In this document: in pieces, positions 1,130 to 20,446 of the stretch
How positions within the stretch are numbered: the first letter of the stretch is position 1
Layout of the letters: the number at the start of each line of letters is the position of its first letter
Assembly (NCBI RefSeq): GCF_010672455.1
Contig: NZ_JAAHGO010000075.1
Location: forward strand, 1 to 43,014
Source of the DNA: Okeania sp. SIO2C9
Lineage (GTDB): Bacteria; Cyanobacteriota; Cyanobacteriia; Cyanobacteriales; Microcoleaceae
Direction of reading: 5' to 3'
Length of the DNA stretch: 43,014 bases
The notes under the pieces: generated by a model
What the model was told of the DNA's origin: nothing
Database searches by the model: none
Seen by the model: the letters and a program-made list of their open reading frames with translations, nothing else
Program-made: the position numbers and the translations under genes

Positions 1130-1352
1130 TTAAGAGTTTAATTTGTCTAAATAAAAGTATGCTTCGCGAAATATTTGACCATAAGTTTCTGTAATTTCGG
1201 CAAAAGTATTTAATGACTCCAGTACATATTTAGAATTACCTGCGAGTCGATGACGCAATGCTTCATCTGTCAATAAAGATTTCAAAACATTTGCTAATTC
1301 TTCTGGGCGATCGGGAGTATAGAATAAACCATTAATATTTGGTTTTACCTGT
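1130..1352 (-). pseudogene. Detached duplicate of the GT4 C-terminus
   Basis: The minus strand reads VKPNINGLFYTPDRPEELAN, then LLTDEALRHRLAGNSKYVLE and YGQIFREAYFYLDKLNS and a stop at 1130-1132. It nearly duplicates the end of the large glycosyltransferase encoded just to its right (1600-1815), with about ten substitutions over some 72 residues. Nothing upstream of this tail is present; it stops where a copy of the 252-bp repeat begins at 1361. It is either the remnant of a second glycosyltransferase gene or a tail duplication. Confidence 0.85.
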
Positions 1353-1360
1353 ACATATTT

Positions 1361-1556
1361 AGGGCTTACCGATCTAATCTAAAAGCATTGACATATAAAT
1401 ACTTTAGCCTTTTTGTGGTCGAAAAAATTTACTGGTATCACATCTAAAACGCTCAAAAAGTTAATATTTTAGGCGCATAGTTTGGCAGAAAAATCATTCT
1501 TACAATTCTTACTCCTACCTCCTCTAAATTTCCATTTTTCCTGTCTCCTGTCTCCT
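1361..1556. repeat. 252-bp TIR repeat, copy 1 (right end lost)
   Basis: It begins AGGGCTTACC and runs through GCATTGACATATAAATACTT, the TCATTCTTACAATTCTTACT block and CTGTCTCCTGTCTCC. The same order is found at 13444-13695 and 15715-15966. The terminal CGCAAACCCT of the other copies is missing, because the sequence passes directly into the 3' end of the giant glycosyltransferase gene. That gene's stop codon (1555-1557) appears to lie inside the repeat. Confidence 0.8.
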
Positions 1557-4500
1557 ACTCCTTAATCCGTAAATCTGTGCCATAATCTCTGTGTGCTAAT
1601 TTGTCTAAAGAAAAGTATGCTTCGCGGAAGATTTGACCATAATTTTCTGTCATTTCTGTAAAGGTATTTAATGACTCCAGTACATATTTAGAATTACCTG
1701 CGAGTCGATAACGTAATGCTTCATCTGTCAATAAAGATGTCAAAACATTTGCTAATTCTTCTGGGTTATCGGGAGTATAGAATAAACCGTTAATATTTGG
1801 TTTTACTTGTTCAACTATGCCAAATACTGGAGTAGTAATTATGGGTAAATCATAAGCCATTGCTTCTAATATGACTCTAGGAAAACTCTCGACGCGAGAA
1901 GTACAAACAAATATATCTGCTGCCAAATAATATTTTGCTGTTTCTGGAGTTTCTTTTACTATTTCTACTCGCTGTTGAATTTCTTCTGGTAACTCAGTCA
2001 AAAGTTCGTGTAATTTTAAACTGTAAAGATTTGGGCGATCGCCTACTAAAAAACATTTAATTTTTTGACTTTCTGTTTCAGGAATAAATGATAATGCTTT
2101 TACTAAATCCTGTTGACCTTTCCTTTCACAAACAGTACCTAATAATAGAATGACAATTTCATCATTTTTTACTTCTAAAGCTGACCTTACCGATTGTTTT
2201 GACCATTTCTGAGATGCAGATTTTAATAACTGTAAATCTAAGCCATTATGTACCACAGTAAAGTTGTGATGACTATTCAAAGGTAAGTATCTATTTCGAG
2301 TAGCATCAGCAACAAAAATTACTCGATAAGGATAGCGGAAACATTCTAATGCTCTAGCAGCTATTTCTGTGCCAAACCGATTAAAATAAGTTTGCCAGGG
2401 TTCACTTTCATGTACATTCCAGACACTGGGAATATTTAACATTTGAGCGATATCTACCATGAAAAAGTTTTCTAAAGTATTGATATACATAACATCAATA
2501 TTTAGCTCTTTTATTTCTTTGGCAAAACTAGCTAATGCTTCATCATAAATATTTCTTTGATAAATATGTTCTAGTGGATTATCTAGAACAACAACCTGAA
2601 TATTATGCTGTTGATAAATTTCTCTCAATTCTCCATCATTGACAGAAAAAATTATTGGTTCAACAATTCCATCATCTGCCAATTTTAGGGCAATTTCTAA
2701 TTGATGAAGTGGCGCACCAGTCAAATCTAGGGAATTACTACACATCAATAATTTAATTCTGGGAAAAATGTCTTTCATCTCAGCGAGTAAGTTTTCCTCA
2801 CTATAATTAACCAGTTCGTTTATTGGTGGTTGATTTGGAGAATTTGTCTCTAGTGCCGGATTATTTATTTGTAATTCTTGCTGAGACTCATTAACTTTTG
2901 CCTGACTATTTATTTGTGGTTGATTTGGAAAATTTGTCTCTAGTGCCGGATTATTTATTTGTGATTCTTGCTGAGACTCATCAATTTTTGTCTGACTATT
3001 TATTGGTGGTTTATTTGGGAAGTTTCCAACTTTTGCTGGATTATTTATTTGTGATTTTTGCTGAGACTGATTAACTTTTGCCTGACTATTTATTGGTGGT
3101 TGATTTGGAGAGTTTATCTCTAGTGCTGGATTATTTATTTCTGGTTTATTTGGATAACTTCCAACTTTTGTTGAATTATTTATTTGTGATTCTTGCTGAG
3201 ACTCATCAATTTTTGTCTGACTATTTATTGGTGGTTTATTTGGGAAGTTTCCAACTTTTGCTGGATTATTTATTTGTGATTTTTGCTGAGACTGATTAAC
3301 TTTTGCCTGACTATTTATTTGTGGTTGATTTGGATAACTTCCCACTTTTGCCTGAATATTTATTTGTGGTTGATTTGGGAAATTTCCCACTTTTGCCGGA
3401 TTATTTATTTGTGATTCTAACTGAGACTCATCCACTTTTGCCCGACTATTTATTTCTAGTTCATTTTGAGAATTTCCCACTTTTGCCGGATTATTTATTT
3501 GTGGTTGATTTGGAGAATTTGCCTCTAGTACTGAATTATTTATTTGTGATTCTGGCTGAGACTCATTAACTTTTGCCTGACTATTTATTGATGGTTGATT
3601 TGGATAACTTCCCACTTTTGCTGAATTATTTATTTGTGATTCTGGCTGAGACTCATTAACTTTTGCCCGACTATTTATTTCTAGTTCATTTGGAGAATTT
3701 GCCTCTAGTTTCGGATTATTTATTTGTGATTCTGGCTGAGACTCATCAACTTTTGCCTGACTATTTATTTCTAGTTCATTTGGAGAATTTGCCTCTAGTT
3801 TCGGATTATTTATTTCTGGTTTATATAGAGAGTTATCAACATTTTCCAGAATATTTATTTGTGATTTTTTCTGAGACTCATCAACTCCTTCCCTCTTCCT
3901 TCTTCCTTCTTCCTTCCCAATAAAATTTATTTGTGGTTCATTTTCAGAATTTGCCTCTAGTACCGGATTATTTATTTGTAATTCTTGCTGAGACTCATCA
4001 ACTTTTGCCGGACTATTTATTTCTAGTTCATTTTCAGAATTTACCTCTAGTGCTGGATTATTTATTTCTGGTTTATATAGAGAGTTATCAACATTTTCCA
4101 GAATATTTAGATCTGATTCTTTCTGAGACTCATCAACTCCTTCCCTCTTCCTTCTTACTTCTTCCTTCCCAATAAAATTTATTTGTGGTTCATTTGAAGA
4201 ATTATCAAATTCCTTCTTCCCTCTTCCTTCTTCCCTCTTCCTTCTTCCCTCTTCCTTCTTCCCTCTTCCTTCTTCCTTCCCAATAAAATATCGCCTTGGT
4301 TTAATTTCAAATAATTCACTTTCGAGAGAAAAATGAGGACTATAAAACCTATCTACCATCTGAGAATATTTCTGACGATAATTTGCTTCTTCCTGGGGAT
4401 TATCAGAATAACCGCGACTCGTTCCTTCCTTATGAATTAATTCAGCATCAGGACAATAAACTGAACGATAACCCTTTTCCAAAAGTCGATAACCATAGTC

Positions 4501-7500
4501 AGCATCATTATAAGCAACAGCAAAATTTGACTCATCAAAACCACCCAAATCTAAAAATAATTGCCGAGAAGTTAACATACAAGCAGCAGTTACTGCTGAA
4601 TAATTTCTTGACACAGAAGCTTGAGAAAGATAACCCCTATTTTCACTATGTAATAACTTAAAAGCATGACCAGCTAAACCATGATGTAAACCATGAATTA
4701 CACCTGCGTGTTGAATCCTTTTATCGGGATAAATTAACTTAGCACCCACTGCACCAACACCAGGGAACTGTGCATAACCAATCATTTGACTTAACCACTG
4801 GGGAGAAATAATTTCTGTGTCGTTATTTAAAAATAGAATATATTCACTATCAACCTGTTCTACAGCACGATTATTAATTGCAGCAAAATTAAATTTACCC
4901 CCACTGTTAGGAATAGAAATAACCGATATATTTGCCGACCCAGAAAATGAATTTTTCAGATTTGCCAAATATTCTAAAGTCTCAGACTCATCACTTTCAT
5001 TATCAATGACAAATATTTGATAATTCTGGTAAGTTGTCTTTTTCAAAGACTCAATACAACACTTCAATAACTTGACTTGATTTTTAGTCGGAATAATAAT
5101 ACTTACCGAAGTACCTTCGTCCGGAAAAGTAGCCTTAAAAATCCCCAAATTTTCTCGCATTGCCCAATCTGGTTGATAAACATCTCCCTCCACATCACGA
5201 CGTTTTAAACTTTCTTGAACCGCTCTTTGACCTGCTAGAAAACTCTTCGGTTTTTCCCCACCAGAAATAGCAGTAGAACCCGGAGAAGTTCGCCAATGAT
5301 ATAACACCAAAGGTAAATGCCCAACTTCACGAGAAATTTCCGTTGCTCTTAAAGCAAAATCATAATCTTGAGAACCTTCAAAACCAACTCTTAAACCTCC
5401 AACTCTGTCAAAAATTTCCTTTCTAACTACACACAAATGACCCATATACATATAAGAAAGTAACAGCTCTGGAGAATATTCCGGTTTAAATTGAGGGTCG
5501 AATCTTTTCCCTTCCACATTAATTTTGTCGTCGTCCGAATAGAGAAAATCTGTTTCTGGATTTTGACTTAAATATAAAGCCACTTCTCCCAAAGCATCAG
5601 GGGTAAGTTCATCATCATTATCTAAAAAGAGAATAAAATCTCCCGTGGCAAGTTCAGCAGCAGAATTCGTCGCAGCACTAATATTTCCATTCTCAGAACG
5701 GAATATTAATTTAATCCGGGAATCTGTCTCAGCTATTTCCGTCAGAAATTCCCGAATATTTGGATTACTACTACAATCATCCGCTATACAAAATTCCCAA
5801 TTTTGGTACACTTGGTTTAGTACACTGGCGATTGCCTTGTCTAAAAATTCCATCGGTGGGTTATAAACTGGCATAACCACAGAAATTTTAGGTAAAGTTA
5901 CCTGGCAACTCTCTAACCGAGAAGTTAAATATTGAACCGAGTGATCGCCCCAGTTATTTACAGCCAACCAAGCATCATAAACATCCACAGTTTCTGGCAC
6001 GACAAACCCAGGGGGTGGTAATAATTCCCCTTCTTGCCATTGTTGCTGTCGATATATCTGTAATATTTGTCTAGCAATATTTGGTAACTCTGAGGGTAGG
6101 GGGATGATGCGACCTAACCTTTGTTTCCTTTCCGCAGTCCGTTTCCCAATAGCTTTGGCAAACTTAGATAATTTCTCCAATTTATCCTTAGCTTTCTCCC
6201 AGAAACTATAACGTCTTAGTTTTAAAACTTCAGAGCAAGGGAAACCGACTATTTCCCCATTTTCCAAATGTGCTTCTAAACTAATTTGCCATTTTCCCGG
6301 TGGAAGTTCCACCGTTGCTTCAAACCCACTATCTGAACTTCCGACTAAGTCAGGAAAAACCTCACCCACATCCTTTCGACGCAAACCATAAGCGCAGTCT
6401 ACAGAAATATCCCCACATTTGAGAACTAACTTTGTGATTTTCTGTTCTGGATGACAACACCAACCCGCAAATAAAATTACCCCCTCCCGTTGTTGCCAAT
6501 TTGTAGGTGCATCAAAATTTGCCTCAACTGTAGATACCGATATTGGATAGGAAGCAAATTTATGCCATCTTCCTTTTTTATCCTGAGCTTCCAGAATTAA
6601 TTGATAATTTCCTGGGGAGAGTTGTAAGGGGATTTGGAAACCAGAATTTTTAGCAGCGGAAATATCTGGAAATTTTTGGGCGACATCTAGTCGTTCAATA
6701 TGATAATTGCCTACAAAAATTTCTTCTCCCACTCTGGCACGAATAGCTTCAATATCCAGACCAGTATTGCGAAAACACCAACCCACTATTTCTATTTGAG
6801 AACTAGCAAAATTCCAAGTAGGGGCGATTCGTGAATCCCCCGGAGAGTCGATAGAGAAAATGAGGCGCATTTGCAACCCACTCAGTTTCCGTTTTAACCC
6901 AGACCATTTTTCTCGCAACTTCCAGAACTTGGAAGACTTCATAGCCGAAATTTCTGCCTTGAGTGTTTCGTTTTCATAGTGTTGAGTTATTAATTGGTCT
7001 TGAGTTTGCCCCAAAATTGTCTGAGTTTCCCCCAAGATTGTCTGAGTTTTTCCCAATTCAGCTTGAGTTTGTTCCAGGGTGATTTGAGTTTTTCCCAATT
7101 CAGCTTGAGTTTGTTTGAGGGTGCTTTGAGTTTGCCCTAAATCTGTTTCTAATATTCCTATTTTGTTCTGAGACTCGGCTAATTTTATTTGAGTGCCATC
7201 TAATTTTTGTTGAGTTTGCCCGAACTCTGTTTCTAACTGTTGAATTTTGGTTTGAGACTCGACTAATTTTATTTGAGTAGCATCTAATTTCTGTTGAGTT
7301 TGCCCGAATTCTGTTTCTAACTGTTGAATTTTGGTTTGAGACTCAGATAATTTTATTTGAGTGCCATCTAATTTTTGTTGAGTTTGTCCGTATTCTGTTT
7401 CTAACTGTTGAAGTTTGGTTTGATAAGCTTGTAATTTAATTAAATTACCATCTAGTTGTTGTTGAGTTTGACCTAATTCTGTTTCTAATATTCCTATTTT

Positions 7501-8925
7501 TTTCTGAGATTCTTGTAACCTAATTTTGTTTCTATCTAGCTCGACTAAATTTTGCCCTAATTCTGTTTCCAGTCCTAGTAACTTTTTCTGAGATTCAGTT
7601 AGTTTTATCTGAGTACCATCGAGTTGAACTAAAGTCTTACCTAGTTCTGTTTCTAGACTTAATATTTTTGCTAAAGCTTCTTGAAATCTTGTTGCTGAGT
7701 TACTGAGTTGTGCTTGAGTTTGTCCTAGAGTTATTTCTAATCTAATGACTTTCTTTTGAGAATCATCTAGTTTAGTTTTGGCACTTTCAAATTGCGCTTG
7801 AGTCTGTCCTAGTTTTCTCTCTAATATGGCAACTTTGGTTTGAGATTCTTGTAATTTTGTTGCTTTGCCGTCGAGTAGGGCTTGGGTTTCTCCTATTTCT
7901 GTTTCTAATGCTTCTAATTTTTTAGCAGATTCTTTGAGCTTAATTTCTCTACTATCAAGTTGTTGCTGAGTTTCACCCAGTTCTTTTTCTAGACTATCTA
8001 CTTTTTGCTGTGCTTCTCTAAAAAAATCTTGCCTTTTTTTGACATCTGTTTCTAACAGATTAATTTGTTTTTCTAAACCTCGAATATTCAACCAATCCTG
8101 AAATTCCCAGAATTGGCAATCATTCTGGATATTTTTGATTAATTCTGATCCTGTACGGGCGAATCGCGATTCGCCCCTACCACCTAAACCTATTTTTTCT
8201 AGTTGTTGATAAACCTCTAATGTTTCTGGGAAATATTTTTCTATGAGGTTAGGTCTACTGGTTTTAATAATATCCTTTACTAATAAAGACTCCTCAAAAT
8301 TACCAGGGGGAGGTGTTGGTAAGTCTACTAAGAATTTATCGTTAACTGCTTGAATAAAACCTTCAGGATTTTTACCAATACTATCAACCTTTGCTATTAA
8401 ACATTGCTGAGAAAAATTTTGATAAAAATCTAAGATTCTTTGATTAGAATTCAGCCACATTTTCACAGCTATTTCTGGCTGTTCCGATAATTTTTCATCA
8501 GTAGCTCGTCGATAAAGTGAGTCTGCTACTTCCCACGGCGAACGATAGACAAAAATAAACTTTGCATCTGGTAATAAGTCTAACCAAAAGTTTAAAAATA
8601 ATGTTGTTCTTGGGTCTTTCCATCCCCAAAATTCTTGAATTTCTTCACGGTTTTTAATTAATCGTTTAGCTGCTTTTAAATATTGTTTCTTGACGGGAAT
8701 TTCTGTAATTTCTACATTACTTCCTAAATCATCCAAACCTTGAGAACCTAATATTCCTTTTTGCAGTTCCACAAATTCAATATCTTCAAAATGCCCCCTA
8801 ACATTTCCATATTCCGGCCCCACTAAATTTTCTCCAATATTTACCCCTACACTCTGAAATAAAGAAGCTGTTAAAGAGGTTCCCGAACGGTGCATTCCTG
8901 TAATAATAAAAACTGTTGATTTCAT
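1555..8925 (-). CDS. Giant sulfotransferase / coiled-coil / GT2-GT2 / GT4 fusion (2456 aa)
   Basis: The protein probably builds and modifies a cell-surface polysaccharide in the cytoplasm. Residues 1-240 are a sulfotransferase-like domain with the PAPS 5'-phosphate loop GMHRSGTS (10-17) and a 3'-phosphate region FIFVYRSPWEVADS. Residues about 283-655 are coiled coil with 28-residue repeats. About 695-905 hold two beta-sandwich modules sharing GWC, R-x-DV and FPD/SGF motifs. About 1010-1250 is GT2 (VVMPVYNPP, DNDDE) and 1270-1530 a second GT2 (SIIIPTKN, LNNDTE, HAG). About 1541-2045 is a low-complexity Q/N/S-rich linker, and 2050-2450 a GT4 (HNGLD, ESFPRVILEAMA). AAGGAG lies about 10 bases before the ATG. 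It follows the methyltransferase and Wzt/Wzm genes on the same strand. The last codon and stop seem to come from an inserted repeat. The domain calls are secure; the sugar and acceptor are unknown. Confidence 0.92.
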   Translation of the reverse strand: MKSTVFIITGMHRSGTSLTASLFQSVGVNIGENLVGPEYGNVRGHFEDIEFVELQKGILGSQGLDDLGSNVEITEIPVKKQYLKAAKRLIKNREEIQEFWGWKDPRTTLFLNFWLDLLPDAKFIFVYRSPWEVADSLYRRATDEKLSEQPEIAVKMWLNSNQRILDFYQNFSQQCLIAKVDSIGKNPEGFIQAVNDKFLVDLPTPPPGNFEESLLVKDIIKTSRPNLIEKYFPETLEVYQQLEKIGLGGRGESRFARTGSELIKNIQNDCQFWEFQDWLNIRGLEKQINLLETDVKKRQDFFREAQQKVDSLEKELGETQQQLDSREIKLKESAKKLEALETEIGETQALLDGKATKLQESQTKVAILERKLGQTQAQFESAKTKLDDSQKKVIRLEITLGQTQAQLSNSATRFQEALAKILSLETELGKTLVQLDGTQIKLTESQKKLLGLETELGQNLVELDRNKIRLQESQKKIGILETELGQTQQQLDGNLIKLQAYQTKLQQLETEYGQTQQKLDGTQIKLSESQTKIQQLETEFGQTQQKLDATQIKLVESQTKIQQLETEFGQTQQKLDGTQIKLAESQNKIGILETDLGQTQSTLKQTQAELGKTQITLEQTQAELGKTQTILGETQTILGQTQDQLITQHYENETLKAEISAMKSSKFWKLREKWSGLKRKLSGLQMRLIFSIDSPGDSRIAPTWNFASSQIEIVGWCFRNTGLDIEAIRARVGEEIFVGNYHIERLDVAQKFPDISAAKNSGFQIPLQLSPGNYQLILEAQDKKGRWHKFASYPISVSTVEANFDAPTNWQQREGVILFAGWCCHPEQKITKLVLKCGDISVDCAYGLRRKDVGEVFPDLVGSSDSGFEATVELPPGKWQISLEAHLENGEIVGFPCSEVLKLRRYSFWEKAKDKLEKLSKFAKAIGKRTAERKQRLGRIIPLPSELPNIARQILQIYRQQQWQEGELLPPPGFVVPETVDVYDAWLAVNNWGDHSVQYLTSRLESCQVTLPKISVVMPVYNPPMEFLDKAIASVLNQVYQNWEFCIADDCSSNPNIREFLTEIAETDSRIKLIFRSENGNISAATNSAAELATGDFILFLDNDDELTPDALGEVALYLSQNPETDFLYSDDDKINVEGKRFDPQFKPEYSPELLLSYMYMGHLCVVRKEIFDRVGGLRVGFEGSQDYDFALRATEISREVGHLPLVLYHWRTSPGSTAISGGEKPKSFLAGQRAVQESLKRRDVEGDVYQPDWAMRENLGIFKATFPDEGTSVSIIIPTKNQVKLLKCCIESLKKTTYQNYQIFVIDNESDESETLEYLANLKNSFSGSANISVISIPNSGGKFNFAAINNRAVEQVDSEYILFLNNDTEIISPQWLSQMIGYAQFPGVGAVGAKLIYPDKRIQHAGVIHGLHHGLAGHAFKLLHSENRGYLSQASVSRNYSAVTAACMLTSRQLFLDLGGFDESNFAVAYNDADYGYRLLEKGYRSVYCPDAELIHKEGTSRGYSDNPQEEANYRQKYSQMVDRFYSPHFSLESELFEIKPRRYFIGKEEGRGKKEEGRRKREEGRGKKEFDNSSNEPQINFIGKEEVRRKREGVDESQKESDLNILENVDNSLYKPEINNPALEVNSENELEINSPAKVDESQQELQINNPVLEANSENEPQINFIGKEEGRRKREGVDESQKKSQINILENVDNSLYKPEINNPKLEANSPNELEINSQAKVDESQPESQINNPKLEANSPNELEINSRAKVNESQPESQINNSAKVGSYPNQPSINSQAKVNESQPESQINNSVLEANSPNQPQINNPAKVGNSQNELEINSRAKVDESQLESQINNPAKVGNFPNQPQINIQAKVGSYPNQPQINSQAKVNQSQQKSQINNPAKVGNFPNKPPINSQTKIDESQQESQINNSTKVGSYPNKPEINNPALEINSPNQPPINSQAKVNQSQQKSQINNPAKVGNFPNKPPINSQTKIDESQQESQINNPALETNFPNQPQINSQAKVNESQQELQINNPALETNSPNQPPINELVNYSEENLLAEMKDIFPRIKLLMCSNSLDLTGAPLHQLEIALKLADDGIVEPIIFSVNDGELREIYQQHNIQVVVLDNPLEHIYQRNIYDEALASFAKEIKELNIDVMYINTLENFFMVDIAQMLNIPSVWNVHESEPWQTYFNRFGTEIAARALECFRYPYRVIFVADATRNRYLPLNSHHNFTVVHNGLDLQLLKSASQKWSKQSVRSALEVKNDEIVILLLGTVCERKGQQDLVKALSFIPETESQKIKCFLVGDRPNLYSLKLHELLTELPEEIQQRVEIVKETPETAKYYLAADIFVCTSRVESFPRVILEAMAYDLPIITTPVFGIVEQVKPNINGLFYTPDNPEELANVLTSLLTDEALRYRLAGNSKYVLESLNTFTEMTENYGQIFREAYFSLDKLAHRDYGTDLRIKE
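2815..4130 (-). repeat. 45-bp coding repeats (15-residue Q/N-rich units)
   Basis: Within the giant gene the linker is a chain of 15-residue units alternating between forms like AKVGNFPNQPQINSQ and AKVNESQQESQINNP, with variants carrying ALEANSPN or LEINS. Dozens of copies with few differences indicate recent expansion by slippage or recombination. The units join the second GT2 to the GT4. Because they lack stops in other frames, the opposite strand shows spurious long open frames. Confidence 0.9.
4200..4285. repeat. GAAGGAAGAGG-type STRR inside the coding region
   Basis: A purine-rich run of CTTCCCTCTTCCTTCTT-type units encodes GKEEGRGKKEEGRRKREEGR in frame. Similar short tracts lie in this gene at about 3890-3915 and 4140-4165, and in the methyltransferase gene at about 10430-10490 and 11817-11852. 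Related purine/pyrimidine tracts occur between genes (about 890-910, 1030-1110, 13200), so a spacer-type repeat seems to have entered coding sequence without breaking the frame. Confidence 0.75.
6960..8075 (-). repeat. 84-bp repeats coding a coiled coil
   Basis: Units of exactly 84 bp, seen for example starting at 7181, 7265 and 7349, encode 28 residues (four heptads) of the type LETEFGQTQQKLDGTQIKL then SESQTKIQQ. Units further out are more diverged but keep the LETELG-Q-Q spacing. Near 7020-7130 the unit shortens to LGKTQ/TLEQTQAE motifs of about 14 residues. Confidence 0.88.
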
Positions 8926-14023: not shown

Positions 14024-15403
14024 CTATATAAATGTCATATTTTTAATCTTTAAACTAGGTTCTATTAAAAAATCAACTACTCCCGTACCACATGAATCAC
14101 TACAATGCTGCACTCTAAACATAGCAATATCAATACAACGAGATAAATAAGTTAGATGGTCGCCTGCCATACCAACAACTCCAGCATTTAAAAAATATAC
14201 CCCAGGATTGAGCAAACATTGAAACTTAAATTTCACTATAACTTTCTGCTGTGCTTCTACATATTCTACTGATTTAGTATAACCATGTAACGATGCTCCA
14301 CCTAAGTCAAATCCACTCAGAGTTTTAATCAACATTCCAAACCTAACTTTAGATGTAGAGTTAATAAATTTTACTGTATAAGTATAGTAATATTCTCGGC
14401 GATTAATTAAATGATTTACTCTCTTACCATCCAAAGTAATAATATGAGGGTCAATAATTTCCGCCCCTTTATTAGGATAATGTATCGTATTTGAAGGTAT
14501 CATTTCCGGGTCATAAATTTCTTCATATTCTGTTGATTCTGAAATTTTATTTTCACTACTTTGTTCTGATTGAGATGATTTTTCATCTGTTTCTTCATCA
14601 TCCAAGAAATCCTTAACTGTCAAATTAGGAATCTGACGAATTTCTTCCCTAATTGATGGAATTTTATCAGGAAAAGCATAAATTAATTTCTGATATTTAG
14701 ATACCACATATTTAGGAGCATGATAAAGTAACATTTCACCATGATCCATCAAAATTGCTGAATCACAAAGTTGTACAACTGTTGAAGCAGCATGAGATAC
14801 AAATAAAATTGTTCCTCCCCTTTCTTGAATATCTTGAATACGAGCAAAACACTTTCTCTGAAATGCTTCATCTCCCACCGAAAGTGCTTCATCAACTACT
14901 AAAATATCTGGGTCAACACTTGTTGCTACAGCAAATCCCAACCTAATAAACATTCCACTAGAATAAGTTTTTACAGGCTCGTCAATAAAATCTCCAATGT
15001 CAGCAAAACCAGCAATTTTATCAAATTTTTCTTCTATTTCTGATGGTTTTAATCCTAATAATTGACCGTTAAAAAAAACATTTTGCCTACCTGTAAACTC
15101 TGGATTAAATCCACTCCCAAGTTCCAAAAGTGCAGAAACTCTACCTTGAACTTTTACCCTACCTGTTGTCGGTGTAAGAGTACCAACAATTATTTGTAGA
15201 AGAGTACTTTTTCCCGAACCATTCCGCCCCACAATTCCTAAAGTATGCCCTCTTTCTATTTCTATATTTATATTTTGCACTGCCCAAAATTCATCAGCAC
15301 GACTTTTTCCTGGGAATAGAATTTCTTTTAAACGGTCTACCGGATGCCGATATCGTTTAAAGCATTTAGAAACATTTTGCAGTGAAATTACAGTTTCAGC
15401 CAT
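14024..15403 (-). CDS. wzt: Polysaccharide ABC exporter ATPase, Wzt type
   Basis: This is the ATPase subunit of an ABC-2 exporter that moves a finished glycan across the inner membrane. Its 459 residues contain Walker A GRNGSGKST (59-67), signature YSSGM (147-151), Walker B ILVVDE (167-172) and switch-region FVSHA. After residue about 300 comes a Wzt C-terminal beta-sandwich domain (IHYPNKGAEI, NRREYYYTYTVKF, LNPGVYFLNAGV). In characterised systems that domain recognises the chain-terminating modification of the glycan. It follows the permease gene and precedes the methyltransferase on the same strand. The length is normal for ATPases with the substrate-binding extension. The call is firm; the gene symbol follows the family name. 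Confidence 0.93.
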   Translation of the reverse strand: MAETVISLQNVSKCFKRYRHPVDRLKEILFPGKSRADEFWAVQNINIEIERGHTLGIVGRNGSGKSTLLQIIVGTLTPTTGRVKVQGRVSALLELGSGFNPEFTGRQNVFFNGQLLGLKPSEIEEKFDKIAGFADIGDFIDEPVKTYSSGMFIRLGFAVATSVDPDILVVDEALSVGDEAFQRKCFARIQDIQERGGTILFVSHAASTVVQLCDSAILMDHGEMLLYHAPKYVVSKYQKLIYAFPDKIPSIREEIRQIPNLTVKDFLDDEETDEKSSQSEQSSENKISESTEYEEIYDPEMIPSNTIHYPNKGAEIIDPHIITLDGKRVNHLINRREYYYTYTVKFINSTSKVRFGMLIKTLSGFDLGGASLHGYTKSVEYVEAQQKVIVKFKFQCLLNPGVYFLNAGVVGMAGDHLTYLSRCIDIAMFRVQHCSDSCGTGVVDFLIEPSLKIKNMTFI

Positions 15404-15968: not shown

Positions 15969-16865
15969 TTATAAAACATCTGCAAAAGCAGGACGTAATT
16001 TTATGTAAACCCACAAACCAAAATAAAATATTAATACAGACATCAAAGCAGCAATTCCTAACTCTCCCCAATGTTTAATTCCTCCTACTAAAACCAGGTC
16101 TCTATATACTTCAGCGATCGCTGTTAAAGGATTACACCAAAATACCCATATTCGCCAATTTTCAGGAATTACAGATGCCGGATATACTATTGGCGTAACG
16201 TAAAACCAAAGATTTAAAATTACTCCTAAAGTCTGAGGAATATCCCGTAAAAATACTGTTAATCCTGCGGTAAAATAACCTAAACCTGCCGTTAATAAAA
16301 GCTGCGGTAAAAATACTATTGGTAATAGCCATAATGTCTGATGGAGTACCCCAGATGATATACATACCATTCCTGTTAAAACTATTAATCCAAATGTACT
16401 TTCTATAAAAGTTGAAAAAACCGGAACTAACGGTAATAAACTAAGGGGAAATACTACTTTTTTTACTAAATTGGGCTGTCCAATCACACATCCAGAAGCT
16501 TGAGTTAATCCATTAGTAAAAGCCAGCCAAGGAATTAACCCAGCAAATAACCATAATCCAAAAGTAACCTTACTATCTTCAGGTAGCCCTTCTAGGTTAA
16601 GCTTGACTTTAAGAATAATTGAGAAGACGTAGGTATAAATTAAAAGTTGGGATAGTTGATTAAGTAACGGCCATAAATTACCCAGAATTGAGCCTTTATA
16701 TCTAGCTTCTAAATCTCTTCGTACTAACGTTAATAGTAGGTTCAGATTTACCAACCAATAAGTATTTACCACGGTTCGCCACCTACTAACCCTGCCAGTT
16801 TTGCGGACAATTCCTTTCATAGTCCTACTATTTTCCGTTTTTTCCTCTACACCACACTCAAGCAA
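15969..16865 (-). CDS. wzm: Polysaccharide ABC exporter permease, Wzm type
   Basis: This is the membrane subunit of the ABC-2 polysaccharide exporter, partner of the ATPase encoded next. The 298-residue frame shows LVRRDLEARYKGSILGNLWP, the amphipathic N-terminal segment typical of Wzm/TagG permeases. About six hydrophobic helices follow (for example LLIYTYVFSIIL, WLFAGLIPWLAF, TFGLIVLTGMVC, LLLTAGLGYFTA and IFYFGLWVYI). LRDIPQTLGVILNLWFYVTP is the conserved region before the last helices. The true start may be the internal ATG (MKGIVRKTG, residue 16), since the first 15 residues are not family-like. It is the first gene of the minus-strand cluster. Confidence 0.93.
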   Translation of the reverse strand: MLECGVEEKTENSRTMKGIVRKTGRVSRWRTVVNTYWLVNLNLLLTLVRRDLEARYKGSILGNLWPLLNQLSQLLIYTYVFSIILKVKLNLEGLPEDSKVTFGLWLFAGLIPWLAFTNGLTQASGCVIGQPNLVKKVVFPLSLLPLVPVFSTFIESTFGLIVLTGMVCISSGVLHQTLWLLPIVFLPQLLLTAGLGYFTAGLTVFLRDIPQTLGVILNLWFYVTPIVYPASVIPENWRIWVFWCNPLTAIAEVYRDLVLVGGIKHWGELGIAALMSVLIFYFGLWVYIKLRPAFADVL

Positions 16866-17637: not shown

Positions 17638-18843
17638 TGTACATAAATATAGTCTAAAGGCCTGATATTTAATGCTACAATTAAATTGGCTAATAATTCC
17701 AGACTAAATAATCATAAAAAATCCTAAATTATCGAATATTAATATAATCTAACCCCCCTTGATTTATGAGATTAGTTGAGAGACATATTATTCAAAAAAA
17801 ACATCGGTTTTATCTGGAAATTGACCGACTATGTCTCTTGTCGAAAAATCTCTATAATTATGCTAATTATTTGGTTCGTAAGTCTTTCATATTTGAAAAT
17901 ACTTATCTTGACTATTACGATCTGCAAAAAACACTCTCTACCCAATCAGATTATCAAGCAATGCCAGCCAAAGTATCTCAACAAATCTTGATGATACTAG
18001 ATAGAAACTGGAAAAGCTTTTTAGCAGCGAACAAAATTTATCAACAGAACCCATCAAAGTTTAAATCTCATCCTCGTCTTCCTAGATATAAAAATAAAGT
18101 AACGGGAAGAAATATTGTAGTTTATACAACACAAGCTATCAGCAAGAGGCAATTAAAGCAAGGAATTATTAATCCCAGTAAAACAGGGATCTATCTAAAA
18201 ACATTAGTACCTACTTCACAAATTAAACAAATTCGTCTCGTCCCTAGACTTAATCATTATGTAATAGAGGTCATTTATGAAGCTACTCAAAAACAATACG
18301 AGTTAGAAAAAAATCGTTGTGCCAGTATTGATATAGGATTAAACAACTTAGCTACATTAACCTTTAATAAGCGCCGGAATCAAACCAATCTTGATAAATG
18401 GCAGACCGTTAAAATCTATAAATCAATACTATAATAAAGTCAAAAGCTTCCTGCAATCTCAACTCCGGGAAAATCAATCAAGTAAGAGGCTGAAAAAACT
18501 TTGTAATCAAAGAGAATTTAAAATCAATGATTATCTTCATAAATCATCTCGTTTGATTATTGATACTCTAACTAATCAGAAAATAGGAACATTGATAATA
18601 GGGCACAATGAAGACTGGAAGCAGAAGATAAATCTAGGGAAGAAAAATAATCAAAATTTTGTATCTGTACCCTATAACAAGTTAATAGAAATGTTATCTT
18701 ATAAAGCCAAGATGGTAGGGATAGATGTAATAATTACAGAAGAATCTTATACCTCAAAAGCAAGTTTTATAGATAATGATATTCTTCCTGTATACAGAAA
18801 AGGTCAGAAAAATCAAGTCACTTTCTCAGGAAAAAGAGTAAAG

Positions 18844-18893
18844 CGATGCAGCGCGGTCTTGGGGGTTTCCCCCATGAGCGACTGCATCAAGAC
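18844..18893. mobile_element. 50-bp palindromic repeat inside tnpB
   Basis: The outer arms GATGCAG and CTGCATC enclose an inner stem GGGGG-TTT-CCCCC. AAAG occurs on both sides (18840-18843 and 18894-18897), a possible short target duplication. The element separates SGKRVKR from GLYRTAN, which are contiguous in this tnpB family. I recognise the sequence as one of the palindromic repeats widespread in filamentous cyanobacteria. Confidence 0.82.
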
Positions 18894-19003
18894 AAAGAGG
18901 TTTGTATCGTACCGCCAACAAAGGATTAATTAATGCTGATGTTAATGGTTCTTTGAACATTATGAGAAAAGCAGTCCCAAATGTTTTTGACTATGGGATA
19001 GAG

Positions 19004-19240: not shown

Positions 19241-20446
19241 ATGGTGGAGAAAGCATACAAATTTAGGCTCTATCCAACACCAGAACAGGAAAACTTGTTG
19301 CGGAGAACTTTAGGCTGTGTGCGACTAATCTACAATAAAGCCTTGGCAGCCAGAACTCAAGCTTGGTATCAGAAACAGGAGCGTGTAGGATACAAGCAAA
19401 CTTCGGCCATGCTTACCAATTGGAAGAAACAGGAGGATTTAGACTTCCTGAGTAAAGTAAGCAGCGTACCATTACAGCAAAGTCTGAGACATTTACAAGC
19501 AGCTTTCACTAACTTTTTTGGTGGACGGACTAAATATCCTAACTTTAAGAAAAAACGGAATGGTGGTAGTGCTGAATTCACAAAGTCCGCATTTAAGTGG
19601 AAAGATGGTCAAGTATATCTAGCTAAATGTAGTGAACCATTACCGATTAGATGGAGTAGACAACTACCACCAGATTGTGTGCCAACTACAATCACAGTTA
19701 AACTTGATCCCTCTGGTAGATGGTCTGTGTCTTTGAGGGTCAATGACACTAGAAATTTAAAACTTACACCGGTACTCAAACAAATAGGTATTGACTTAGG
19801 AATTACCAGTTTAGTTACTACCAGTGACGGAGAAAAAATTGCTAACCCAAAGAATATAAACAAATTACACAAAAAATTGAGATTGGCCGGGAAGTCTCTG
19901 TCAAGAAAAACTAAGGGTTCTAATAATTATCAAAAGGCTAGGTTGATTTTAGCCAGGATACACGCAAAAATTAAAGATTCAAGGCTTGACTATACTCATA
20001 AACTAACTACTCAATTAATCAGAGAAAATCAAACTGTTGTAGTTGAGGAAATAGCCGTAAAAAATATGGTCAAGAATCACAAATTAGCTAGAGCAATAAG
20101 TGATGCCAACTGGTCTGAGTTAGTCAGACAGTTGGAATACAAGGCTGAATGGTATGGACGGGAATTAGTCAAGATTGACAGGTATTTTCCCAGTTCTAAG
20201 CGTTGTTCTAATTGTGGTCATGTAGTTGAGAAATTACCTCTAAATATTAGAGAGTGGGATTGCCCAGAATGTGCAGCTCACCATGATCGAGATATTAACG
20301 CTAGTATAAATATTTTGGCTGCGGGACTCGCAGTGTCAGTCTGTGGAGCGACTGTAAGACCATCTGGGAGCAAGTCTCGGAGGGCGGGTGCTAAGAAACA
20401 GAAAATCTCTAACAGTGATGCTAGGGAATCCCGCGCTGTCTCGTGA
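19241..20446 (+). CDS. tnpB: TnpB, IS200/IS605-type RNA-guided nuclease (401 aa)
   Basis: The frame is complete and keeps all key residues. After the N-terminal KFRLYPTPEQENLLRRTLG come RuvC-I GIDLG (Asp185), RuvC-II VVVEE (Glu269), a four-cysteine zinc ribbon CSNCG and CPEC (322, 325, 341, 344) and RuvC-III HDRDINAS (Asp351). Characterised TnpB proteins use an RNA from the element's right end to cut DNA at the donor site. No tnpA is nearby, so this is a solo-tnpB element that would need help to move. The stop codon lies in the loop of a terminal hairpin. It sits just before ruvB, 67 bp away. Confidence 0.93.
   Translation: MVEKAYKFRLYPTPEQENLLRRTLGCVRLIYNKALAARTQAWYQKQERVGYKQTSAMLTNWKKQEDLDFLSKVSSVPLQQSLRHLQAAFTNFFGGRTKYPNFKKKRNGGSAEFTKSAFKWKDGQVYLAKCSEPLPIRWSRQLPPDCVPTTITVKLDPSGRWSVSLRVNDTRNLKLTPVLKQIGIDLGITSLVTTSDGEKIANPKNINKLHKKLRLAGKSLSRKTKGSNNYQKARLILARIHAKIKDSRLDYTHKLTTQLIRENQTVVVEEIAVKNMVKNHKLARAISDANWSELVRQLEYKAEWYGRELVKIDRYFPSSKRCSNCGHVVEKLPLNIREWDCPECAAHHDRDINASINILAAGLAVSVCGATVRPSGSKSRRAGAKKQKISNSDARESRAVS

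Follow-up and report, generated by a model that had tools for sequence, protein, structure and literature searches.

The window analysed here, 43,014 nucleotides of Okeania sp. SIO2C9 (contig NZ_JAAHGO010000075.1, positions 1 to 43,014) from a genome of 10.9 Mb, carries at 1555-8925 a single open reading frame (ORF) for a fused protein of 2456 residues, downstream of genes for a Wzm-type permease and a Wzt-type ATPase, the components of an ATP-binding cassette (ABC) exporter (Table 1). The plus-strand frame translated over this interval is riddled with stops, and the coding strand is the minus strand. A Pfam scan of the protein identified Sulfotransfer_3 at residues 7-196 (E 4.1e-8, 34.2 bits, with a cut-off of 27), Glycos_transf_2 in two stretches, the best at 1015-1175, and Glycos_transf_1 at 2246-2412; the second glycosyltransferase family 2 (GT2) domain was best caught by PF13641 (residues 1274-1503). 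The solved structure nearest in sequence to the first GT2 domain is chondroitin synthase. The glycosyltransferase modules, encoded after a coiled coil, were assigned by family, and a polymerase role is predicted for them. The original prediction, made from the sequence alone, had described a fusion of a sulfotransferase, a coiled coil, two GT2 domains and a glycosyltransferase family 4 (GT4) domain, which was borne out; the repeat region at residues 1536-2050 is an addition to that description.

The same order of blocks (sulfotransferase, β-sandwiches, GT2, GT2 and GT4) was found within one ORF in 23 of the 35 orthologous loci first fetched, and in the remaining 12 the gene was split, cut by a contig end, or a full block was absent from that ORF. 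When a central segment of 337 residues (661-997, the coil end and the sandwiches) was used as query, 57 of 61 genomes of the family matched, and all 52 good ones did so, mostly with one match per genome; three genomes held two pieces. Outside the family, Aphanothece hegewaldii (L055) has a gene of this fused architecture following those for Wzm and Wzt. The gene is not a local fusion.

Residues H12 to S17, R128 and S136 of the N-terminal domain were unchanged across 31 aligned sulfotransferase rows, and we take the HRSGTS motif, R128 and S136 to be the 5'- and 3'-phosphate loops of a site for 3'-phosphoadenosine 5'-phosphosulfate (PAPS). The AlphaFold2 model of residues 1-300 had a mean predicted local distance difference test score (pLDDT) of 78.5 and a predicted template modelling score (pTM) of 0.81, and all 21 Foldseek matches to the sulfotransferase model at E<=0.001 were sulfotransferases, with the sulfotransferase domains of olefin synthase and curacin and the tyrosylprotein sulfotransferases at the top. 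By query length, these matches had moderate template modelling scores (TM-scores) of 0.32-0.53; lower in the list stood a few nucleotide kinases. The predicted PAPS binding by the N-terminal domain, a point set beforehand for the original proposal, is supported by the invariant loop residues and by the predicted fold.

The coiled coil was delimited by R282 of DWLNIRGLEK and W668 of KSSKFWKL. One heptad phase is occupied by I, L, V, M, F, Y or W at 53 of 55 positions (0.96), and the maximum reached by any phase in 2000 shuffles was 0.473. In the partner phase only 16 of 55 positions are hydrophobic and most are Thr or Ser, and a Leu in every fourth heptad of this phase gives the coil its 28-residue unit, as anticipated by the four-heptad units of the earlier description. 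The Thr/Ser-rich partner positions (window 6922-8082) make a polar core for a coil of such length. At about 1 nm per heptad, the coil would span an estimated length of about 55 nm in this protein, and those of the family 22-65 nm.

The coil was surveyed in the window and 58 further loci (L071-L128); 52 of these 59 sources were measurable (all except L078, L079, L080 and L103-L106). The distance from R to W was 1 mod 7 in 50 of the 52. The conforming coils have 14 distinct lengths, from 155 to 456 residues, and therefore at least 13 length changes kept the class; because all four mod-28 classes occur, the steps were not only whole 28-residue repeats. As a control, the linker between the second GT2 and the GT4 domains gave 24 values from 36 to 655 residues, with 15 distinct lengths in six mod-7 classes (L100, with 33 residues and a cut GT4, and the window, with about 535 under the block limits applied, are omitted). 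On a 51-row sulfotransferase-domain tree, which leaves out L102 for an X in the coil and L097 for a short sulfotransferase stretch, parsimony counted 22 length changes, 15 changes of mod-28 class and 1 change of mod-7 class; these counts are rough, since only 11 of the 48 inner branches are strongly supported. The coil is 204 or 211 residues long in 33 of 52 orthologues, and varies from 351 to 456 among close Okeania strains. Ungapped comparison of 14 coil pairs, each of length 211, showed an overall identity of 16-28%, a value that compensating heptad indels could depress: six pairs of Planktothrix with Microcoleus-like genomes (our label for genus code g11 of the same family and its neighbours) were 16-17% identical in the coil and 56-57% in the sulfotransferase, and eight pairs involving L098 or L099 were 25-28% and 49-58% identical, respectively. 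At the DNA level, the coil contains 84-bp repeats that are 86% alike, and also 21- and 42-bp sub-repeats.

The genes upstream are in the order Wzm, Wzt, methyltransferase(s) and fused gene in Okeania, Trichodesmium and Microcoleus-like genomes, and in Planktothrix the fused gene follows immediately after Wzt. Of 35 loci, 29 have a Wzt match adjoining the gene and the remaining six are contig ends or fragments; the Wzt C-domain region was present in all 30 Wzts chosen for alignment. A phmmer search of this domain against full-length Wzt in the PDB gave no significant alignment (i-Evalue 1e+02), and a reading of its pocket for sulfate as opposed to methyl was dropped. One Arg, within an L.R..D stretch, is invariant in the 30 aligned cyanobacterial Wzts, from which no conclusion is drawn. 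Of the Planktothrix proteins only L096 was scanned, and it ends in a methyltransferase domain; L090-L096, L098 and L099 have C-terminal extensions of about that size. The window's 931-residue methyltransferase protein has repeat-rich linkers, and its last part (about 773-931) had no Pfam match among those listed; the Microcoleus-like loci match its first methyltransferase domain only. Further upstream, two overlapping ORFs (222 and 180 residues) at 17766-18933 resemble a broken TnpB-type transposase and lie beside an intact-looking one at 19241-20446.

Table 1. Features of the fused gene and its neighbours in the window (residue numbers refer to the 2456-residue protein unless stated)
Feature	Position	Strand	Basis or remark
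Whole ORF, 2456 residues, sulfotransferase-coil-β-sandwiches-GT2-GT2-GT4	1555..8925	-	ORF translation and Pfam
Sulfotransferase domain, residues 1-250; HRSGTS loop 12-17, R128, S136	8176..8925	-	Pfam, alignment, AlphaFold2 model
Coiled coil, R282 to W668, 387 residues, 55 heptads in 28-residue units	6922..8082	-	Heptad-phase analysis
Basic Trp-rich helix KSSKFWKLREKW..., about residues 661-690, conserved coil end	6856..6945	-	Alignment and AlphaFold2 model
First β-sandwich, about residues 704-797	6535..6816	-	AlphaFold2 model and Foldseek
Second β-sandwich, about residues 801-904	6214..6525	-	AlphaFold2 model and Foldseek
GT2 domain a, residues 1015-1175, DNDD at 1102	5401..5883	-	Pfam
GT2 domain b, residues 1274-1503, NNDT at 1367	4417..5106	-	Pfam
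Variable linker, residues 1536-2050, 15-residue repeats, N/Q/S/P-rich	2776..4320	-	In-frame heptanucleotide repeats
GT4 domain, residues 2057-2416	1678..2757	-	Pfam; best solved relative by sequence Alr3699 (4xso)
GT4-end remnant copy, 88% identical to residues 2372-2444	1136..1354	-	Directly downstream of the gene
Protein with two methyltransferase stretches, 931 residues	9831..12626	-	Pfam; upstream, same direction
Wzt-type ATPase with Wzt_C domain (PF14524, E 7.1e-25)	14024..15403	-	Pfam; upstream neighbour
Wzm-type permease (ABC2_membrane)	15969..16865	-	Pfam; upstream neighbour

The two β-sandwich modules that had been proposed are found in tandem in the AlphaFold2 model. A carbohydrate-binding identity was considered for them and rejected, as the Foldseek matches were to generic immunoglobulin (Ig) and fibronectin type III folds with low TM-scores (0.17-0.26 by query in the rows shown), and the predicted β-sandwich fold class is the sole identity claimed. 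The GT2-GT4 linker measures 145 to 655 residues in four Okeania relatives, 104 and 192 in two Trichodesmium, and 33-99 in the other relatives measured; its stretch at 4210-4281 matches 12 other places in the genome at the protein level. A short palindromic interspersed element stands in frame at window 8152-8181 (GRGESRFART), just ahead of the coil, and a second, imperfect one at 6817-6840 (GDSRIAPT), ahead of the sandwiches; neither occurs in L071, the orthologue of SIO1I7. Genome-wide, the pattern GGGGCGAATNNNNATTCGCCC is matched 63 times in forward and 71 times in reverse orientation, many sites being counted for both strands, and the reversed control 0 times. A GT4-end remnant comparable to that of the window also lies downstream of the gene in SIO3B5 (L075:465-764).

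Of 386 genomes sampled evenly across the phylum, 37 had a match to the sulfotransferase domain at E<=1e-30, and 12 of these belong to the family. Twenty loci were fetched, 19 from other families plus L180, a second copy inside the family. A Wzt match was found within the stretch in 12 of the 20 (at L174 on the opposite strand), not counting a weak partial match at the edge of L164. At the 14 loci with a measurable coil end, 11 proteins stop within 28 residues after W and 3 continue into glycosyltransferase domains. In other cyanobacteria, the sulfotransferase-coil module is often a separate protein encoded after Wzt, as is WbdD. The ORFs scanned after the sulfotransferase-coil gene at L057 and L069 were glycosyltransferases (one below the cut-off), those at L177 and L178 were glycosyltransferases or had no family, and L167 showed a pyruvate-formate-lyase-like protein; a C-methyltransferase lies near L171, L179 has a methyltransferase domain, and in two proteins (L163 and L165) a methyltransferase is fused ahead of the sulfotransferase. 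A second type of sulfotransferase-coil protein, of 700-915 residues, occurs in the same genome and in relatives (L129:6986-9733, L130:3389-5638, L131:2903-5011 and L132:2720-4822). This type showed no KSSKFW helix in the parts of its sequence displayed and no Wzt match within the fetched DNA, and its scanned neighbours were of the GT61 and FkbM types at L129 and of glycosyltransferase types at L130 and L132.

Several known systems bear on these observations, among them Klebsiella pneumoniae O12 WbbB, whose terminator glycosyltransferase is reportedly of the 3-deoxy-D-manno-octulosonic acid (Kdo) type. Like the fused protein, WbbB is described as carrying terminator and polymerase on one polypeptide with a coil ruler, although with a glycosyltransferase as terminator and other glycosyltransferase families (PMC11231755). 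K. pneumoniae O7 ORF6 (methyltransferase-kinase, Ig-like carbohydrate-binding module, coil, GT2-GT2) shares the N-terminal modifier, the coil and two C-terminal GT2 domains, together with an Ig-like module and a cluster with wzm and wzt; in contrast, its terminator is a methyltransferase-kinase rather than a sulfotransferase, its Ig-like module follows the kinase domain whereas the two sandwiches of the present protein follow the coil, and it lacks the extra GT4 domain in the chain (PMC11231755). In Escherichia coli O9a WbdD the terminator also sits on a coil in an ABC export system, resembling the stand-alone modules after Wzt, and coil length was shown to set chain length; WbdD differs in being a kinase-methyltransferase and in having its polymerase, WbdA, as a separate protein (PMC3482155, PMC5082667). 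A coil conserved in length and not in sequence is regarded as a spacer, and the spacing of WbdD is put at about 20 nm, with about 1 nm per heptad (PMC5082667). The estimate for the present protein is about 55 nm, with 22-65 nm for the family, and the longest coils would be about threefold the WbdD spacing. Cyanobacterial sulfotransferases in a surface-polysaccharide locus are exemplified by XssA and XssE of the Synechocystis xss (synechan) cluster, which belong to a Wzx/Wzy pathway and are described as separate genes, with no coil mentioned in the accessible part of that report (PMC8205485). The presence of sulfotransferase genes in cyanobacterial ABC-type polysaccharide clusters is already noticed, since Maeda et al. 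reported many such genes in Wzx/Wzy- and ABC-type clusters (PMC8205485). Among the literature matches listed, none presented a sulfotransferase terminator on a coil by its title or the start of its abstract, and no experiment on these fused proteins was found in these searches.

Compared in sequence, the protein matches the design of WbdD, WbbB and O7 ORF6 (terminator, coil ruler and polymerase) with a sulfotransferase in the terminator's place. Two further features of coil-ruler terminators were found, namely an extended coil that bears the modifying enzyme at its distal, N-terminal end, and a locus with Wzm and a Wzt bearing a C-terminal domain of the cap-binding type; such a Wzt recognises the capped non-reducing end and goes with capped glycans (PMC9445017). 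Because terminator, coil, polymerase and Wzt thus have counterparts by sequence, with the sulfotransferase replacing a methyltransferase, kinase or cap glycosyltransferase, sulfate capping at a distance set by the coil seems most likely. On balance we lean towards the view that the fused protein is a single-chain assembler of an ABC-exported glycan, in which a coil-set sulfate cap ends growth and tags the chain for Wzt. The GT2-GT2-GT4 part, near the membrane, would elongate a lipid-linked glycan, and a rigid, oligomeric coil of 55 heptads would carry the PAPS-dependent sulfotransferase at its far end. Once the non-reducing end is long enough to reach the sulfotransferase, its terminal sugar would be sulfated, in some lineages probably with a methyltransferase acting together with the sulfotransferase; sulfation would stop chain growth, and the terminal sulfate would be the tag for the Wzt C-terminal domain, leading to export via Wzm/Wzt. 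From the domain order and its conservation, the neighbouring genes, the sulfotransferase fold with its conserved PAPS loop and the continuity of the heptads, we infer enzyme activity, oligomeric state, cap, export tag and ruler effect alike. The analogy with WbdD that had been suggested at the outset gained from the Wzm/Wzt_C context, the register kept in 50 of 52 coils, the sulfotransferase at the coil end, which is the site of the terminators of characterised systems, and the stand-alone module after Wzt, and its ruler effect stays a prediction; of the two caps then envisaged, sulfation is favoured over methylation because the place of the methyltransferase differs between genera. More tentatively, sulfate may represent a further kind of cap beside methyl, methyl-phosphate and Kdo, with a ruler of 22 to 65 heptads and glycan lengths that differ in exact heptad steps within a genus.

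Nevertheless, several observations weigh against this interpretation. A register of sevens is expected of any continuous coil, and slippage of the DNA repeats could be a partial cause of it. In the family, the coil of L100 (186) breaks the register and its phase weakens over the final third, and that of L102 (321) deviates across an X residue. Of the 15 coil lengths measured outside the family, only 8 are 1 mod 7 (7 of 14 plus L055), with anchors picked by eye and a chance of 4e-4 for at least 8 of 15 at 1/7 each; L057/L172 and L069/L168 were each counted once, and the unmeasurable L166, L175, L179, L180, L181 and L182 were left out. The second Planktothrix copy (L180, 315-5126, 1603 residues) has a sulfotransferase, two GT2 domains, a GT4 domain and almost no coil, and the 8.5 kb fetched around it contained no Wzt match; in L179 and L182 a glycosyltransferase domain comes immediately after the sulfotransferase. 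Therefore, these enzymes are not always linked by a rod. A methyltransferase is present at many of the loci of the fused gene and could be the cap enzyme. An amphipathic membrane helix after the coil is not claimed, since neither in the window nor across a set of 15 did the 18-mer hydrophobic moment exceed that of shuffles; the basic Trp-rich helix may possibly contact the membrane. Finally, Aeromonas salmonicida has a gene with a sulfotransferase domain between wzt and wbbB, although its O antigen is not known to contain sulfate (PMC4483657).

The chief rival, which we regard as rather unlikely, holds that the sulfotransferase decorates repeat units along the chain, as in a sulfated capsule, the coil merely tethering the enzyme and the cap being made by another enzyme or by none. 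Maeda et al. thought it possible that the sulfated capsule of A. platensis stems from an ABC-type cluster (PMC8205485), a methyltransferase able to make a methyl cap is often near, and the coil-poor L180 fits enzymes without need of a rod; an internal modifier, however, needs no distal place on a register-keeping rod, and no methyltransferase was found among the neighbour ORFs scanned at L057 (2), L069 (2), L167 (1), L177 (3) and L178 (2), two of which have no family. If the sulfate cap is real, the coil might still be an oligomerisation scaffold that drifts with its tandem repeats and does not set chain length. To this explanation we give little credence: the 84-bp repeats 86% alike, the different lengths in Okeania strains (351 to 456) and the 21- and 42-bp sub-repeats, which could slip in seven-codon steps, would suit it, but the design resembles proven rulers, and a length of 204 or 211 in 33 of 52 coils, with 16-28% coil identity in the 14 equal-length pairs, looks like selection for length.

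In partial overlap with sulfation along the chain, the methyltransferase could be the terminator and the N-terminal domain minor or inactive. Methyl caps are known (PMC9445017), and L163 and L165 carry the methyltransferase ahead of the sulfotransferase; yet its place shifts from a separate gene (Okeania, Trichodesmium and Microcoleus-like genomes) to the C-terminus (L096) or the N-terminus (L163 and L165), whereas the sulfotransferase-coil pair is retained by the 52 family members measured and at 14 of the 20 further loci and the PAPS loop is invariant in 31 rows, which makes this explanation quite improbable. An assembly chimera or chance fusion, conceivable because long repeats hamper assembly of the region, can practically be dismissed given the same architecture at 23 loci of separate genomes, the central segment matched by 57 of the 61 genomes of the family, the fused gene of Aphanothece and the location of the orthologues L096 and L098 on contigs of 5.5 and 6.4 Mb.

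If the capping by a coil-held sulfotransferase is correct, it would represent a further termination chemistry in a polysaccharide pathway and would give a clue to how surface glycans are sized in filamentous cyanobacteria (Okeania, Trichodesmium, Microcoleus-like genomes and Planktothrix). The coils of the family, from 155 to 456 residues with the register kept in 50 of 52, would then provide a natural series for the ruler model across strains.

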